Assembly: GCA_902760415.1 (NCBI GenBank) | Contig: CACWGK010000004.1 | Location: 1-57,933 of the forward strand | Direction of reading: 5' to 3' | Length of the DNA: 57,933 nucleotides | Source of the DNA: an uncultured Lachnospiraceae bacterium | GTDB lineage: Bacteria > Bacillota > Clostridia > Lachnospirales > Lachnospiraceae | Part shown: in pieces, positions 25,798-40,055 of the stretch | Layout of the letters: every line of letters starts with the position of its first letter | How positions within the stretch are numbered: the first letter of the stretch is position 1 | Translations under genes and position numbers: made by a program | The notes under the pieces: generated by a model | What the model saw: the letters and a program-made list of their open reading frames with translations, nothing else | Database searches by the model: none | What the model was told of the DNA's origin: nothing

Positions 25798-27603
25798 CTA
25801 TAGTAAAATATTAGCAGAAATGACTATTTTATCGATGTTGGTTATACTATGTCCCTGAATTACAAGTTTCCTTGGAATATCATATTTTTCATCATTTATA
25901 ACCTGAATATCATAGTAATCTACCAGTCCCTTCATCATAAGAGCTTCTATCATGCTGTCATAATAGTTCTTAATCTCGCTCATTTCAGGGGACATATATA
26001 TATAATCTGTAGGTTGATTTATAAATCTTTCAGGAACTGTACGAACCTTTATCAGCTCAGATCTATCACGTGTTCTTCCTAATCTTCTCTTGTATAGATA
26101 TGTTTCTTCAAAATCCCATGGACTGTAACTTCCGAACAGAGGATGCACACTAACCAGCACTCCACCCCTTATGATCCAGCAAACTATAACTCCTGATGTT
26201 TCCTTTGTATAATGATCAGGATACTTATTCTCTAGACCATCAATCTTTGCAGTAACTAGATATCCCTTTTCTTCTTCTGATATAGGTTTAAATATCTCTA
26301 ATTCAAAAGGAGAAAGACCTCCCATAATAGCTTCCGCAGAAACACCTTGTCCCGGAAGTATCTCACTGCTGATTCTCTCACAGAGTTCTGTGGTTATACG
26401 CTCGGCATCTGGGTCAAATGAATCGCAAATTGCTTTAAGATATGTATCACTCACTCCATCCTTAATAATAATCTTAAGATCAGCGTTATATACATTTGAA
26501 TGAAGAATTCCTTTGTCAATACTTCTACTACTCCGTCCTTCACTGATAAAGAGAACCACATCCTTATATCTATCATCAAGAATCTTTTCAAATATGCGGT
26601 ATCGTTCCCATGAAAAAGCTCTGCAATACATCACTCTGATATCCTCTTCAGGAGCAGAAACAACGTATCTGTAATAATCAAATAGATATCTATCTCTTGT
26701 AACATCCGCATTTATTCTCATAAGTGTATCTGGAGCTGGATGAGTAAACCTTAGATACTTCTCATCAGGATCTAATACATAATAGTCCAGGAAAAAATGA
26801 ATCTCTTTTTTCACATCTGACCTTCGCAGATTCCCCTTCAGATACTGAAGAACAAAAACTGCAGGATCCGAATGTGAAACTACTGCATTATCAAAGAAAT
26901 ACTTATTTATCTCGCTGCTATTTTTACATTTCTTCTTAAAGGATTCGCTTACAAATCCTTTTCTCACAAGCCATGTAACAAGATAAGCAACCTCACCCAC
27001 TGCGTATCTATCAATCAAGTAATTATCGTCACTCGTGAGCTGTTCGGGATTCTTATTATGTAAATATAGATATTCCTCTCTTGCTCTGGCACGTGCTCCC
27101 TCAACATCAAATCCATTAAACTCTATACGTCTTGGTGCAGCCTCAAACTTCGGTGGCTTATTATTTTTAGGATTAGTCTCTTTAACAGAATTAAATATAT
27201 AGAAGAGAACCACCACTATACCTATAGCAATTCCAAAGAATGTATTAGGCACCGATCTTGAAACATCATCTTCTCGAATCAACATTCCCATGAGCGTCAA
27301 AAAGACTGCCACTTTCATCAAAAATCCAGTTAGAAGAACCGCTTTCATCTTTCTTCTGGTTCTGATCAGTCCTGCTATAGTAATCGCCAGAAACATCGCT
27401 ACCGCTAGAAGACACCATACATCAATATCCTGTTCATGCAGGACCTTCGATATACCCTTTTCAGGTATAAGATAGAATATAAAGTAACATAAAAAAGTGA
27501 CAAGAACTATACCCTCTGGAATCAAACAGATTCCAAGAAGGACATATCTTGCCACATCTAACTTACTAGTCTTTTCTTTTTTTGTTAATTTACTATTTGT
27601 CAT
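25798..27603 (-). CDS. Unrecognised membrane protein with large cytoplasmic region
   Basis: 601 residues that I do not recognise. A Lys-rich start is followed by four hydrophobic segments at about 19-46, 62-82, 88-110 and 118-140, then a Pro/Lys linker and about 450 soluble residues with no TM. The soluble part is rich in Tyr, Arg, Asp and Glu and includes RARAREEYLYLHNKNPEQ, a segment with DPDEKYLRFTHPAPD and a C-terminal sheet-like region. No Walker, HTH, kinase or protease motif is visible. It starts 21 bases after the MATE gene and so is probably co-transcribed with it. A membrane-anchored regulatory or assembly protein is a guess only. Confidence 0.75.
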   Translation of the reverse strand: MTNSKLTKKEKTSKLDVARYVLLGICLIPEGIVLVTFLCYFIFYLIPEKGISKVLHEQDIDVWCLLAVAMFLAITIAGLIRTRRKMKAVLLTGFLMKVAVFLTLMGMLIREDDVSRSVPNTFFGIAIGIVVVLFYIFNSVKETNPKNNKPPKFEAAPRRIEFNGFDVEGARARAREEYLYLHNKNPEQLTSDDNYLIDRYAVGEVAYLVTWLVRKGFVSESFKKKCKNSSEINKYFFDNAVVSHSDPAVFVLQYLKGNLRRSDVKKEIHFFLDYYVLDPDEKYLRFTHPAPDTLMRINADVTRDRYLFDYYRYVVSAPEEDIRVMYCRAFSWERYRIFEKILDDRYKDVVLFISEGRSSRSIDKGILHSNVYNADLKIIIKDGVSDTYLKAICDSFDPDAERITTELCERISSEILPGQGVSAEAIMGGLSPFELEIFKPISEEEKGYLVTAKIDGLENKYPDHYTKETSGVIVCWIIRGGVLVSVHPLFGSYSPWDFEETYLYKRRLGRTRDRSELIKVRTVPERFINQPTDYIYMSPEMSEIKNYYDSMIEALMMKGLVDYYDIQVINDEKYDIPRKLVIQGHSITNIDKIVISANILL

Positions 27604-33995: not shown

Positions 33996-35405
33996 CTAAT
34001 TTGCTACTATTACAGATGCAGTACGGATTACTTTACCCTTATATACATACCCTGTCTGCATTACCTGCTTTACAGTATTCTCTGGAAGATCCACATCAGC
34101 AATATGCGCTACTGCATTTTGGAGATTAAAGTCAAACGGCTCTCCTTCTCCAGAGATTATAGTAATTCCATTTTCCTCAAGGATTTTAACTGCATTTTCG
34201 TAGCTCTGGATAATACCCTTTGTATATGGATTATCAGGATCCTGTGCAAACTTTGATGCATACTCAAGATTATCAATAATCGGAAGTATCTTCTCTACAA
34301 AGTCAGCAACTGTTTCTTCCTTATCTTCTGCTCCGGCACCACCATCTGTAGAACCTATAGGAAGTTCAATATACTTATCGCTATCCATCTGCTGTATAAG
34401 CAGTGTAAGTGCTCTATGCTCATCAGCTCCAATGCCAACCCAAACTGGTTTCTTATAAAAATCAGTAAGGTTATCCTTAGGAACCTTAAGTCCACCGATC
34501 TTAACTAATCTATCCTGCTTCTTCTCATATACAGTGATCACTTCCGAAGAACCAGTGGATTCTGGAAGCTTCTTTATCTCAAGACCAGCATTTTTCGAAA
34601 GTGAAGTCTCAGGCTTAACAGCAGAGAATATCTCGCTATTTATACCAACATATATTTCATATGGAGATATATTGTCTGATACACCAAGCCCTACGAAAGC
34701 CTCTCTTCCTTCAAGCTTTCCACAGATATAGCCAAGTCCTTCAACTATGTCATCACTACTCTTCATCTTAAACTCTATCTCAGAATTAACAAATGTTCCT
34801 TCCTTGATATAAGACTTAAGTGACTGTTCCATAGAGATGCAGGCATTCATACTTCCTGCTCCAAAGAATATTCCTGCTTCTGTTGCATCAAAAAGTCCTG
34901 CTGAATAGCTATGTAAAAATGGAGCTCTTCTAATAGAAGCACCTGACCATCTTCCAGCAACATAAGTACATATCTTCTCAACGCCCTTATCACTGAAGTC
35001 ATATTCTGATATAGATAGTCTTCCTTCTGCTATAACAGCTGAAAGCACTCTTCCATCAAAGTCATACTCACCATACAAATGAAGTGCAAATGCTAAAGTC
35101 TCATCTACGACCTTCATAATCTCTATGCCTGTCTGCTGACCTACTTCATATATTCTACGTATCTCTTCTATACCAAAATTATCTGGCACACATATAGCCA
35201 GACCAAAATCAAATATATTAAGCTTTTCCTTGAGATATTCGCGAATTGCTTTAAGAACACCTGTAAGAGCAAACTCCTGCTCCAGGATATCGTCACGTCT
35301 AAGATCTGCTGGTAGATTAAAGGATGCTGTACTTATTGACTCATCTTCGCACCAACATAAGAAGACCTTCTTGTCCCAAAAATGAACACCAATTACATTT
35401 TTCAT
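33996..35405 (-). CDS. Degenerate Hsp70-like protein fused to a GrpE domain
   Basis: 469 residues. The last roughly 107 (about 363-469) are a clear GrpE domain: EKILPIIDNLEYA, GIIQSYENAVKILEENGI, then PFDFNLQNAVAH, PENTVKQVMQTGYVYKGKVIR. The first roughly 225 look like an Hsp70 ATPase fold: VIGVHFWDKKV in the phosphate-1 position, ICVPDNFGIEEIRRI, and GIEIMKVVDETLAFALHLYGEYD in place of the Hsp70 NEPTAAALAYG region. The nucleotide motifs are eroded: no GTT after the first strand, no DLGGGT (VIAEGRLSIS instead). Residues 240-350 resemble an Hsp70 substrate-binding sheet, ending in Gly/Asp/Glu linker. I infer a pseudo-chaperone with an exchange factor in cis. It has its own promoter and terminator. 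Confidence 0.82.
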   Translation of the reverse strand: MKNVIGVHFWDKKVFLCWCEDESISTASFNLPADLRRDDILEQEFALTGVLKAIREYLKEKLNIFDFGLAICVPDNFGIEEIRRIYEVGQQTGIEIMKVVDETLAFALHLYGEYDFDGRVLSAVIAEGRLSISEYDFSDKGVEKICTYVAGRWSGASIRRAPFLHSYSAGLFDATEAGIFFGAGSMNACISMEQSLKSYIKEGTFVNSEIEFKMKSSDDIVEGLGYICGKLEGREAFVGLGVSDNISPYEIYVGINSEIFSAVKPETSLSKNAGLEIKKLPESTGSSEVITVYEKKQDRLVKIGGLKVPKDNLTDFYKKPVWVGIGADEHRALTLLIQQMDSDKYIELPIGSTDGGAGAEDKEETVADFVEKILPIIDNLEYASKFAQDPDNPYTKGIIQSYENAVKILEENGITIISGEGEPFDFNLQNAVAHIADVDLPENTVKQVMQTGYVYKGKVIRTASVIVAN

Positions 35406-35453
35406 CTATATACCCCCAATTATATTAAAGAGTCTTAGAAACTCAATATGAAC

Positions 35454-35482
35454 ATTCTACCACATTTAGTACTATGTGTCAC
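35454..35482 (-). promoter_or_regulatory. Promoter of the Hsp70-like/GrpE gene
   Basis: Minus-strand GTGACA (35477-35482), 17 bases, TAGAAT (35454-35459); five of six matches in each box. No CIRCE-type element is seen, so HrcA control is not indicated. Confidence 0.7.
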
Positions 35483-36852: not shown

Positions 36853-37692
36853 CTAGTCTAGCTTAATTACAAACTTACCTATAGCCCATGAAACTATAAA
36901 GAATAAAAAGTCCATAGCAACAATTGTAGCACCGGTTGGAGTATTTGCAAGCATGGATATGATCATACCCGTAAGCGAGCAAACTATCGAGAAGATAACC
37001 GATAGAATAACAACCCCCTTAAAGGTTCCACTTAGTCTCATAGCAGCAAGTGCAGGGAATACGATAAGTGCTGATATAAGCAAGCTTCCAACCAGATTCA
37101 TTCCAAGTACTATAATAATTGCGATTATAACTGCAATCAGGAAGTTATATCTTCCTGCAGGAACTCCTGTAGCTCTACAGAATGTTTCGTCAAATGTCAC
37201 TGCAAATATCTTATTATAGAAGATAATGTATATGGCAATAACCACTACTGAAAGAGCAATACATATAGCAACTTCTGCTTTATCCAGCGTTAGGATTGAT
37301 TTGGATCCAAACAAGGTTCCACATACATCGCCTGATACGTTAGCCGATGCAGAAAAAACATTCATTATCATATAACCAAAAGCTAGGGATGTGACAGATA
37401 TCATAGCAATAGCCGCATCTCCCTTCAACATGGACTTGTTTCCACTTCTAAGAAGAAGCACTGCTGCTAGAATAGTAACAGGCATAACAAGTATGGAGTT
37501 ACTTACAAGATGGAGTACACTTGCTACAGCCATGGCGCCAAATGCCACATGAGACAGTCCGTCTCCGATAAATGAATAACGCTTCAGCACCAGTGTAACC
37601 CCCAGAAGTGATGCACAAAGTGCGATAAGTACACCAACTATAAGAGCATATATAACAAAATTATACTGAAGGTACATTTGAAGTTTTTCCAT
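36853..37692 (-). CDS. znuB: Metal ABC transporter permease
   Basis: Membrane permease of 279 residues of the ABC-3 family, which import zinc or manganese. About nine hydrophobic segments are visible, with KRYSFIGDGLSHVAFGAMAV after TM2 and a coupling region CRATGVPAGRYNFL. Its ATG overlaps the ATPase stop as TAATG. With the substrate-binding protein and ATPase encoded just upstream it forms a complete importer under the Fur-family regulator at the head of the operon. Confidence 0.93.
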   Translation of the reverse strand: MEKLQMYLQYNFVIYALIVGVLIALCASLLGVTLVLKRYSFIGDGLSHVAFGAMAVASVLHLVSNSILVMPVTILAAVLLLRSGNKSMLKGDAAIAMISVTSLAFGYMIMNVFSASANVSGDVCGTLFGSKSILTLDKAEVAICIALSVVVIAIYIIFYNKIFAVTFDETFCRATGVPAGRYNFLIAVIIAIIIVLGMNLVGSLLISALIVFPALAAMRLSGTFKGVVILSVIFSIVCSLTGMIISMLANTPTGATIVAMDFLFFIVSWAIGKFVIKLD

Positions 37693-38423
37693 TATTCATT
37701 TCCTCCTTCAGCTTCCTCATCATCCATCTCAATAGTAGAGAAGAACTTATATGCCTCACTATGAAGATAATCTTCGGTTGCTCCGTAAAACAGCTGCTTC
37801 TGACCTAAATGAAGTATCTTGTTCGAGAATCTTACAGCTGTATTGATATCATGAGATATCATAATTATAGTAACACCCGTATCATTTAATGATTTTACGA
37901 GTCGATACATTTCTTCTGTAACCTTAGGATCAAGTCCAGCAACTGGCTCATCCAGGAGAATGAGCTTTGAAGTAGCGCAAAGGGCTCTGGCAAGGAGAAC
38001 TCTCTGCTGCTGTCCACCAGAAAGATTTCTAAAGGTCTTCTTTCTCAGTTCCCATGCATCAAATCTCTTAAGGCACTCCTTGGCGCGTTCCTTCTCTTCT
38101 TTATTATAGAATGGTCTAAGACCTGACTTTGCAAGATTACCAGATAGGACAATCTCCCACACACTAGCAGGGAAGTCCTTCTGCACAACTGTCTGCTGAG
38201 GAAGATAACCAATATCTTTAGTACCCAGCTCTTCGTTAAATGTAATCTCACCCTTTACAGGTGGAATAAGACGCAGCAGAGTCTTCATAAGTGTACTCTT
38301 TCCTGCGCCATTTTCTCCTACTATACATAGATAATCTCCCTTCTCAACTACGAAGTTAATATGCTTCGTAAGGGGAATCCCATCATATCCTGTTGTTAAA
38401 TGCTTTACTTCAATATAATTCAT
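37692..38423 (-). CDS. znuC: Metal ABC transporter ATP-binding protein
   Basis: Importer ATPase of 243 residues. Walker A GENGAGKST, C-motif LSGGQQQRVLLARAL, Walker B ILLDEPVAGLD and H-loop MISHDI are intact. ATG at 38423 lies five bases after AGGTGA; the longer frame would begin in the znuA tail region. The C terminus ends in an acidic stretch DDEEAEGG, possibly metal-interacting. It overlaps the permease gene by one base. Confidence 0.94.
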   Translation of the reverse strand: MNYIEVKHLTTGYDGIPLTKHINFVVEKGDYLCIVGENGAGKSTLMKTLLRLIPPVKGEITFNEELGTKDIGYLPQQTVVQKDFPASVWEIVLSGNLAKSGLRPFYNKEEKERAKECLKRFDAWELRKKTFRNLSGGQQQRVLLARALCATSKLILLDEPVAGLDPKVTEEMYRLVKSLNDTGVTIIMISHDINTAVRFSNKILHLGQKQLFYGATEDYLHSEAYKFFSTIEMDDEEAEGGNE

Positions 38424-38475
38424 ATAATCACCTGATTTTTCAAATGCATTAATCTTATTCACACACTAGAAACCT

Positions 38476-39594
38476 TTATTCGGATACCCCCAGTGCCTTC
38501 TTCAGTACGCTAAGATTATCTGTCATTATCTGTAAATAGCTTGTTCCAGCTTCGATATCTGCAGGTGTAACTGACTGAAGTGAATTAAGTGTCAGGATTT
38601 CCTGATCCTTTGAATCAGTATTATCTCTTACTGCTTTAGCTATATCCTGTTCACCCCTTTCTATAGTACAGATTGCAGGAAGCTTTAATTCATTAACCTT
38701 TTCAGAAAGGAATATAATAGTCTCAAAGCTTGCTTCTGTTTCGGCTGAACAACCAACAAAAGCCGCATAGTAGTTAATTCCGTAATCATCCACCATATAT
38801 CTAAATGGGAATCTGTCACCAAAAAGAATAGTATCAACTGTTTTAGCATCAACTGCTGACTGATACTCTGCATCTAGAGCCGAAAGCTTTTCAATATAAG
38901 CAGCAGCATTTGCTTTGTAAGCAGTAGCATTTACCGTATCCTTTGTTTCTAGTGTCTCAGCTATCTTCTCAGTTAAGGTCTCAGCATTTCTAATCGAAAG
39001 CCATATATGCTCATCATATTCTATATCTCTATCGTCATGATGATGACCTTCGCCGTCTTGAGGCTCTTCCTCATCTGTCTCAGACGCATCCTCTTCGGAA
39101 GCTTCATTTTCTTCTTCACCTTCCATGCCTTCAACAAGCTCTTCTTCCTTGACACTATCGCCAAGAACCTCCATAAGGTCAATAACTACCATATCCTTAT
39201 TTAAAGCTTCCTTCAGCGCATCATCAACCCACGCATCTGACTCACCGCCAACATAGATAAATACATCACATGTTGAAATCTTAGCTATATCCGCAGCTGT
39301 AGGCTGATAACTATGAAGATCTGTACCCTTATCAAGAAGCATCGATACTTCAACACTGTCCGCCGGGCTAGTATCTACACTACTTTGTCCCTGACCAACT
39401 ATCTCTCTAACCCAATCATATTCTGGGAATATAGTAGTAACTATCTGAAGCTTATCATTCGAAGAACTGTCATTATCTTCTCCAGCTCCACATGCAGTAA
39501 GTCCAAGCGCCATGCCAATAGCCAAACAAACAGATGTAAGTTTCTTCGCAAAAGTCTTTGCTATTCTATTATTTATTCTAAATTGATGCTTCAT
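38476..39594 (-). CDS. znuA: Metal-binding lipoprotein of the ABC importer
   Basis: Substrate-binding lipoprotein of 372 residues (lipobox LTAC). The cluster A-I fold is clear: DLHSYQPTAADI with the first metal His, a long acidic His loop of about 45 residues ending GHHHDDRDIEYDEHIWLS (second His), then GDRFPFRYMVDDYGI and a conserved CSAETEASFETI. In classic ZnuA a third His stands before the FxYF-type segment; here that position is GD. The acidic/His loop is typical of zinc-specific proteins. It follows the regulator gene by eight bases. Confidence 0.92.
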   Translation of the reverse strand: MKHQFRINNRIAKTFAKKLTSVCLAIGMALGLTACGAGEDNDSSSNDKLQIVTTIFPEYDWVREIVGQGQSSVDTSPADSVEVSMLLDKGTDLHSYQPTAADIAKISTCDVFIYVGGESDAWVDDALKEALNKDMVVIDLMEVLGDSVKEEELVEGMEGEEENEASEEDASETDEEEPQDGEGHHHDDRDIEYDEHIWLSIRNAETLTEKIAETLETKDTVNATAYKANAAAYIEKLSALDAEYQSAVDAKTVDTILFGDRFPFRYMVDDYGINYYAAFVGCSAETEASFETIIFLSEKVNELKLPAICTIERGEQDIAKAVRDNTDSKDQEILTLNSLQSVTPADIEAGTSYLQIMTDNLSVLKKALGVSE

Positions 39595-39602
39595 TTTGTA
39601 AC

Positions 39603-40055
39603 TTACACCTCTAACTTTCTACAACTATCACACAAACCATATAATACGGTTCTACGTGGATTAATCACGAAACTATGATTCTTTTCAATATGCTTGATCA
39701 GCGCTTCTATCTCTTCGCAGTGGAGATGAATCAGTTTGCCACATTTATCACATTTGCAGTGATAACAGCTAGCTGCGCCATCTTTGGTATGCTCATCATC
39801 TATATATTCGAAGCAGGCGGAGCTGCCATTATCCAGGTTATACTTGTTGATAATGCCCTCATCTACCAGCTTGTCGAGATGACGATAGACTGTTGTAAGA
39901 CCGATAGGTTTACCAGATTCCTCGAAATGCTTAACTATATCATTTACAGTAACATGCTCCCCCTGGGTGGCCATGAGATAAGCTGTTATCTCAGCCCTCT
40001 GCCAGGTCTTATACTGCGATCTATTTTGATTTTTTGTCTTAGGATCTAATGTCAT
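39603..40055 (-). CDS. Fur-family metal regulator, probably Zur
   Basis: A 150-residue metal-responsive repressor. The N-terminal winged helix includes VTVNDIVKHFEESGKPIGLTTVYRHLDKL; the dimer domain has the structural zinc ligands CDKC and CDSC, plus HLHC and an HCKC pair. The position at the head of a ZnuABC operon suggests Zur, but Fur, Mur or PerR cannot be excluded by sequence alone. Three 7-1-7 boxes surround its promoter, so it should repress itself and the importer when metal is plentiful. Start ATG at 40055 with GAGGAG upstream. Confidence 0.9.
   Translation of the reverse strand: MTLDPKTKNQNRSQYKTWQRAEITAYLMATQGEHVTVNDIVKHFEESGKPIGLTTVYRHLDKLVDEGIINKYNLDNGSSACFEYIDDEHTKDGAASCYHCKCDKCGKLIHLHCEEIEALIKHIEKNHSFVINPRRTVLYGLCDSCRKLEV

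Follow-up and report, generated by a model that had tools for sequence, protein, structure and literature searches.

The general view is that nucleotide exchange factors work on Hsp70 in trans and that bacteria depend on a stand-alone GrpE. The stretch of DNA analysed here (the window, 57,933 nucleotides from an uncultured Lachnospiraceae bacterium) contains an open reading frame that a first-pass annotation, made from the letters alone, had read as an Hsp70-like pseudo-ATPase and a GrpE domain in the same chain. The locus raises the question of whether the two parts really belong together, what each of them has kept, and on which Hsp70 such a GrpE domain could act. The features of the locus are given below, with the evidence for each in brackets.

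33996..35405, minus strand: fusion gene, an Hsp70-like module with a GrpE C-terminal domain, 469 aa (ORF, relatives, genus count, dN/dS)
35067..35405, minus strand: residues 1-113, predicted first actin-like lobe with the IA core and scant room for IB; H8 at the phosphate-1 Asp site (AlphaFold secondary structure, alignment of 22, offset against DnaK)
34698..35054, minus strand: residues 118-236, predicted second actin-like lobe with the IIA core; second phosphate motif lost, G184 and G223 kept (AlphaFold secondary structure, DnaK offset, invariant alignment columns)
34356..34685, minus strand: residues 241-350, predicted eight-stranded domain resembling the Hsp70 beta substrate-binding domain, without the alpha lid (model, Foldseek, profile match; Pfam match of L083)
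34320..34355, minus strand: residues 351-362, short Gly/acidic linker where GrpE has its tail and long stalk helix (pLDDT, linkers of 38 distinct fusions)
34170..34319, minus strand: residues 363-412, two helices corresponding to the GrpE four-helix dimer bundle (PF01025 match; model helices 366-385 and 393-411)
33999..34169, minus strand: residues 413-469, GrpE beta domain, the side facing DnaK IB/IIB in known complexes (PF01025 match; 1dkg_A, E 2.4e-9)
35454..35482, minus strand: promoter-like site GTGACA-17-TAGAAT with TG before the -10 (consensus match; 49-77 bases before the start codon)
35413..35417, minus strand: GGGGG, a putative ribosome-binding stretch before the ATG (sequence)

The two parts of the fusion

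The open reading frame of 469 aa (P0001) is intact over 33996-35405 on the minus strand, and the plus strand of the same interval is interrupted by stops. The Pfam GrpE profile (PF01025) matches residues 361-468 with 93.4 bits (E 1.6e-26; curated cut-off 25.8), practically the interval of 363-469 that had been assigned to GrpE at first pass. This is the sole Pfam match of P0001, and it covers profile positions 55-164 of 165. The NCBIfam GrpE equivalog cut-off of 176 was missed, the top score being 63.6 bits among the GrpE models in the 25 listed of 28 families. By sequence, the nearest solved relatives are E. coli GrpE (1dkg_A) and 4ani_A (E 3.3e-9), and the match to the M. tuberculosis chain 8gb3_E begins at position 86 of that chain. 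From these alignments the dimer bundle and the NBD-facing beta domain of GrpE appear to be retained, and the N-terminal tail and the long stalk helix are missing. The first-pass claim of a full set of GrpE hallmarks therefore stands for the bundle and the beta domain and fails for the tail and the stalk.

The absence of the stalk is general. In 38 of 38 distinct fusions it is lacking between the beta substrate-binding (SBD-beta) part and the bundle, and the bundle helix directly follows a short, mostly acidic linker; among these sequences L083 is an exception with a longer linker, and the bundle loop of L088 contains an insertion. The Pfam GrpE match reaches back to positions 13-51 in some other genomes, which was taken as chance because the aligned linkers are just as short there. 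In 14 aligned fusions (the near-copies L009 and L011 are left out) most columns of residues 417-469 are invariant. G397 is invariant as well and was placed by eye at E. coli G122, although the HMMER alignment sets another residue at that site. E. coli GrpE is inactivated by G122D, according to the accessible text of PMC10825016.

The general Pfam HSP70 model matched neither P0001, at E up to 1, nor any of the 22 aligned N-terminal parts, the window's included. The two Pfam domains that the annotation expected in one protein are thus found together in a paralogue from another genome of the genus, L083 (523 aa), which passes both cut-offs (HSP70, 24.8 against 20.6 bits; GrpE, 77.7 against 25.8 bits), whereas P0001 passes that of PF01025 alone. 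Residues 247-373 of L083 match Pfam HSP70 positions 363-485. The profile of the 22 N-terminal parts was compared with six Hsp70s from the window's genome and related genomes, and it was found that residues 55-346 correspond to Hsp70 107-473 (94.6%, E 6.6e-8). The comparison with ten canonical DnaKs alone gave a weak match (15.6%, E 0.0017), and the control with eight MreBs is lower still (2.8%, E 0.016), so that an MreB-type origin was rejected. A profile search of PDB sequences with the 22 N-terminal parts returned nothing at E 0.1.

The AlphaFold model of the fusion, computed from 14 aligned sequences, has a mean pLDDT of 79.4. Over residues 1-350 the blocks lie at 68-95; in the GrpE part they lie at 35-74, with the beta domain poorly modelled (35-61), and residues 355-364 around the linker fall below 50. 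The predicted order in lobe I is strands 3-10, 13-20 and 23-30, helix 44-62, strand 67-73, helix 79-91, strand 95-101 and helix 102-113. In lobe II it is strands 118-126, 129-138, 141-152 and 179-184, helix 186-202, strand 211-215 and helix 218-231, and eight strands between residues 251 and 349 follow. The model thus has the two-lobed actin-like fold and the beta substrate-binding domain of an Hsp70, with Hsp70-like lobes over residues 1-225, where an actin-like fold had been expected. Among the 335 Foldseek matches at E 0.001 or better, the best 50 are all, by title, Hsp70 or Hsp110 chains or complexes holding one, except that two of the 50 are titled ciliary central pair only; RAC, which is also among the matches, presumably contains an Hsp70. 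BiP ranks first (E 6.5e-16), with a TM-score of 0.53 when normalised by query length. Based on the model and its Foldseek matches, the profile match to the six Hsp70s and the double-domain paralogue, residues 1-350 were taken as a degenerate Hsp70 module.

Several elements of an Hsp70 are lost from this module. IGVHFW stands where Hsp70 reads IGIDLGTT, the DLGGGT-type second phosphate motif is gone, and H8, at the site of the phosphate-1 Asp, is invariant in the 22 aligned sequences, as are the glutamate E102, G184 and G223. The eroded nucleotide motifs noted at first pass are thereby confirmed, and exchange through an ATP-binding Hsp70-type NBD, as in Hsp110, is not to be expected from such degenerate motifs. 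By landmarks, the strand at residue 66 corresponds to DnaK residue 112, which leaves the module with a deficit of about 46 residues at the place of IB. When we pair fusion 142-177 with DnaK 186-306, between the third and the fourth strand of lobe II, about 85 residues are lacking; automatic alignments put this deficit at about 55-60 and spread it over a wider stretch. We take the deficit to fall where IIB lies. Just 26 residues are predicted between strands 141-152 and 179-184, from which most or all of IIB appears to be absent; there is little room for IB. By length and predicted secondary structure, the module therefore seems to lack the IB and IIB complement of an Hsp70, and the alpha lid is absent too.

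Distribution, conservation and genomic setting

Relatives of the whole fusion were found in 15 cases in named genomes, matched from residue 1 or 4 through 469 with identities of 37-90%. In the genus the N-terminal profile matches 39 of 61 genomes, and 37 of these matches are strong, each with GrpE in the same frame; in the other two (G418, G420) the match is a stand-alone 351-aa relative only. The two sets overlap, several contigs being the same records, and their counts are not additive. Of the 31 genus genomes with a completeness of 90% or more and a contamination of 5% or less, 21 match, including G420, which gives the fusion in 20 of 31. In the wider searches the N-terminal profile matches 2 of 397 family genomes, namely the window's own and one with a conventional Hsp70 (L087), and 1 of 341 class genomes, again its own. 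The whole-protein search matches 108 of 299 family genomes, with the GrpE part only in all but the own genome. The GrpE profile matches at least 379 of the 397 family genomes; 26 genomes with extra or odd GrpE matches were examined more closely (G005 was left out). In the plasmid search, none of the 27 records covers 80% of the query, and the 10 listed match the GrpE part only.

The mean pairwise identity among the 38 distinct fusions is 67% for the GrpE part, 42% for lobe I, 40% for lobe II and 29% for the SBD-beta part, which makes GrpE the most and SBD-beta the least conserved part. For eight pairs, dN/dS is 0.029-0.106 in the Hsp70-like part and 0-0.080 in the GrpE part; the pairs are partly non-independent, and synonymous change is near saturation in several. 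One of the eight has a higher value for GrpE than for the Hsp70-like part (0.080 vs 0.029). Both halves are under purifying selection. As 37 of the 61 genus genomes also carry the fusion, and named-genome relatives share it, an assembly or frame artefact is ruled out: a worn-down Hsp70 and a GrpE domain are joined in one conserved chain, in one genus with kinship to Lachnospiraceae of the rumen.

In a GrpE tree, the GrpE domains of 37 fusions cluster together (98/91), separate from those of 38 canonical proteins. The tree has a midpoint root, few columns and long branches that were flagged (L083 above all); identical sequences were dropped, and L106, L113 and L114 were left out. Since the fusion domains group separately, a recent copy of the genus's own grpE is not supported as the source of the GrpE part, and the fusion looks old by this tree. 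When its presence is placed on a tree of 29 DnaKs out of the 61 genomes (16 with the fusion, 13 without; L165 is not in the tree), 4 changes are needed, compared with a mean of 9.8 after shuffling.

The N-terminal part also has relatives of other forms. Three stand-alone proteins of 351-370 aa without GrpE (L084, 2323-3435; L085, 2320-3375; L086, 2296-3351) match the Hsp70 part of the fusion by profile (95.9%, E 6.1e-9), and L086 barely passes the Pfam HSP70 cut-off (20.8 vs 20.6 bits). Two longer proteins, of 674 and 686 aa (L103, 711-2771; L104, 1937-3961), consist of an Hsp70-remnant-like N-terminus, a long acidic linker and a C-terminal GrpE (97.8 and 83.3 bits). Their N-terminal part matches the stand-alone family (93.0%); the N-terminal profile of the fusion itself gives 5.6% against them, which is not significant. 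Two genomes of the genus beyond the 39 matched by the N-terminal profile (G406, G431) carry this acidic-linker form. GrpE thus seems to have been joined to Hsp70 remnants in at least two forms, which points to a pseudo-Hsp70 family whose members the general Pfam Hsp70 model mostly misses.

The genome of the window also contains a canonical dnaK and an ordinary grpE, whose presence the annotation had left to be checked. They lie in one grpE-dnaK operon, which also holds hrcA and dnaJ (named by eye) and is preceded by a perfect CIRCE. No CIRCE was found in the window at up to 3 mismatches, and upstream of 38 fusion genes the best sites have 6-10 mismatches of 18 (two of the stretches are shorter than 300 bases). 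With no CIRCE at the fusion and a perfect one at the dnaK operon, the fusion gene seems to be separate from the heat-shock operon. The promoter-like site before it looks similar in L001 and L002, from two close species, when compared by eye, and promoter-like sites in the region are not enriched (8, against 8.4 in shuffles).

Another GrpE match is present in 25 of the 37 fusion genomes, in two of them as fragments (G432, G442). In the other 12 the fusion is the only GrpE match, and 11 of these are under 90% complete. None of the 12 has a complete canonical dnaK: cut pieces occur in L120 and L129, and a short piece, G451:C167, lies outside the comparison. Their large HSP70 matches (345-430 bits) are accessory Hsp70s, with 56-88% identity to the accessory Hsp70 of the window's genome and 34-40% to its DnaK. 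As canonical dnaK is also missing or cut there, the grpE-dnaK operon seems to be unassembled in these genomes, and replacement of the canonical grpE by the fusion is not seen. The accessory Hsp70 (about 370-440 bits) was considered as a dedicated partner and is uninformative, since it occurs both with and without the fusion.

The fusion gene is flanked by the genes for a SpoU methylase and for a DUF5684 protein, and zinc-uptake genes lie nearby. The latter are ABC-type genes (ABC-3, ABC_tran, ZnuA) with a Fur-family regulator at window positions 36853-40055, and they lie beside the fusion in close relatives too. The clades compared have no neighbour in common beyond the fusion and its antisense ORF, so that no operon partner is indicated.

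Possible action on a separate Hsp70

According to the accessible portions of PMC10803776 and PMC10825016, GrpE touches the NBD at subdomains IB and IIB through its beta domain and its bundle; its stalk reaches IA and, in the complex from M. tuberculosis, also the SBD. In M. tuberculosis GrpE the stalk residues R64-R78 are needed for good DnaK binding and exchange; mutation of the bundle patch (Mut-2) decreased exchange, and that of the beta-domain patch (Mut-3) changed little (PMC10803776, accessible text). In the available part of PMC12915176, the N-tail of E. coli GrpE is said to occupy the substrate site of DnaK weakly. Going by these portions of PMC10803776 and PMC12915176, the GrpE proteins of M. 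tuberculosis and E. coli depend on stalk and tail for substrate release and for binding tightly.

What was computed for the fusion is its architecture, the loss of nucleotide motifs, the shortness at IB and IIB, the missing stalk, the conservation and the lack of a detected CIRCE. Our tentative reading, which we hold at somewhat less than an even chance, is a trans-acting co-chaperone of DnaK or of an accessory Hsp70, outside the CIRCE operon, in which a nucleotide-free Hsp70 scaffold replaces the GrpE stalk. Dimerisation, DnaK binding, exchange and client binding are the steps that we infer for it. Two copies would pair through the GrpE four-helix bundle, and the beta domain would dock on IB and IIB of a genuine Hsp70 and open it, so that ADP is released. 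The Hsp70 remnant of each subunit (the IA and IIA scaffold with the beta substrate-binding domain) would hold a client or a cellular site, and exchange and hand-over would take place at the site so held. Sitting at the position of the stalk, the remnant could also supply contacts that compensate for it. The working logic would be like that of Hsp110, holdase and exchange factor in one, but with GrpE as the exchange part and an inert Hsp70 part.

For such a co-chaperone it counts that canonical dnaK is present, so that the cell has a partner, and the top conservation of the GrpE bundle and beta domain is as expected if they face a slowly evolving partner. Because the stalk is lost and the side facing IB and IIB is kept, action in trans on a separate Hsp70 is possible, but other contacts must make up for the stalk. 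On the other hand, binding of the fusion to DnaK may be weak or absent, since the missing stalk is the part that carries the R64-R78 contacts (PMC10803776, accessible text). Client binding is a guess, the SBD-beta part being the least conserved, and the poor model of the beta domain, the one pair with the higher GrpE dN/dS and the lack of a shared neighbour also count against this reading.

One alternative, put forward in the first-pass annotation, is a self-contained machine, in which the GrpE domain exchanges nucleotide in cis on its own Hsp70 part. The covalent joining of the two parts would suit it; however, the phosphate motifs are degenerate, and the module is short (by about 46 residues at IB and about 55-85 at IIB) in exactly the two subdomains that GrpE grips and wedges apart, so that exchange in cis is hardly credible. 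The decoy and the recruiter of DnaK, which the annotation also proposed, may still apply. The fusion could instead be a regulator opposing the canonical GrpE, where a homodimer or a mixed dimer occupies DnaK without full exchange or substrate release and lengthens client holding. We consider this unlikely, if worth keeping in view: stalk and tail are absent from all 38 distinct fusions aligned and a canonical grpE is in the same genome, but a 350-residue remnant under such strong constraint goes beyond the need of a decoy, and the chance of mixed dimers is reduced by how far the fusion GrpE domains group from canonical GrpE (98/91). That the GrpE part only pairs two Hsp70 remnants or tethers DnaK, as a pure scaffold or adaptor with no exchange job, seems rather unlikely. 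The missing stalk contacts would be accounted for, and the stand-alone remnants without GrpE imply that such remnants are useful by themselves; yet the beta domain, which is dispensable for pairing, is also strongly kept. Re-use of both parts as binding folds in an unrelated new role would agree with gene neighbours that vary by clade (zinc uptake and SpoU methylase here, others elsewhere), and is improbable given the high conservation of the GrpE part.

Compared with known systems, the fusion shares the four-helix bundle and the C-terminal beta domain with GrpE, and differs in having an Hsp70 remnant instead of the N-terminal tail and long stalk and in lying outside the CIRCE-preceded dnaK operon. 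It keeps the DnaK order of lobe I, lobe II and beta substrate-binding domain, but with degenerate nucleotide motifs, short IB and IIB and no alpha lid. With Hsp110/Grp170 (Sse1) it shares an Hsp70 relative and an exchange-factor function in one chain (PMC12987570, accessible text), and Sse1 (2qxl_A) is among the listed Foldseek matches (E 6.3e-13); Hsp110, however, exchanges through its own NBD, whereas the NBD core of the fusion is short at IB and IIB and any exchange would come from GrpE. A further step would be that a bacterial counterpart of Hsp110 has evolved, a dimeric holdase and exchange factor made of a stripped, nucleotide-free Hsp70 joined to a GrpE exchange domain, in which the remnant would deal with clients in place of the GrpE tail, within a wider pseudo-Hsp70 family of stand-alone, short-linker and long acidic-linker forms; we regard this as doubtful. 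As the annotation had supposed, no description of the architecture was found in the literature searched, which leaves most subscription papers outside and covers accessible parts of PMC10313047, PMC7159879 and PMC12987570. With its inert Hsp70 and stalk-less GrpE, the fusion would be a natural test of which GrpE parts exchange requires; it would also show whether the substrate-binding fold of an Hsp70 can be the client-handling arm of an exchange factor.

Other GrpE and Hsp70 arrangements

A divergent GrpE-like gene lies beside an Hsp70 gene at five loci of the same bacterial family (L105, 298-6458; L109, 1877-4578; L111, 2652-6422; L112, 402-5444; L114, 3228-7001). The GrpE-like part of L112 is fused with a metallo-beta-lactamase-like protein, and the pair in L105 has a GTPase-like protein next to it (both by eye). 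These pairs recall the GTPase-centred GAP1-N2 conflict systems with HSP70 and GrpE, where, in the accessible text of PMC7159879, a GrpE relative occurs together with an Hsp70 outside the main operon, as the GrpE domain of the fusion does. They differ from the fusion in being separate genes, in their visible Hsp70 motifs and in their weaker GrpE matches (L109, E 1.2e-8; L105, E 8.7e-5, below the cut-off). The N-terminal profile of the fusion has no match in L105 or L108-L114.

In L106 (347-1588) an aroA-like ORF (by eye) runs into a GrpE tail; this joint is probably a misassembly, because a grpE fragment lies at a contig end elsewhere in the same genome. Within the window, a 601-aa protein at 25798-27603 has a sub-threshold DUF7832 match only (E 0.00021, 21.8 bits, cut-off 27). 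In L113 (1505-6060) two dynamin-like GTPases, as identified by eye, flank a protein of 294 aa whose GrpE domain scores 45.4 bits.
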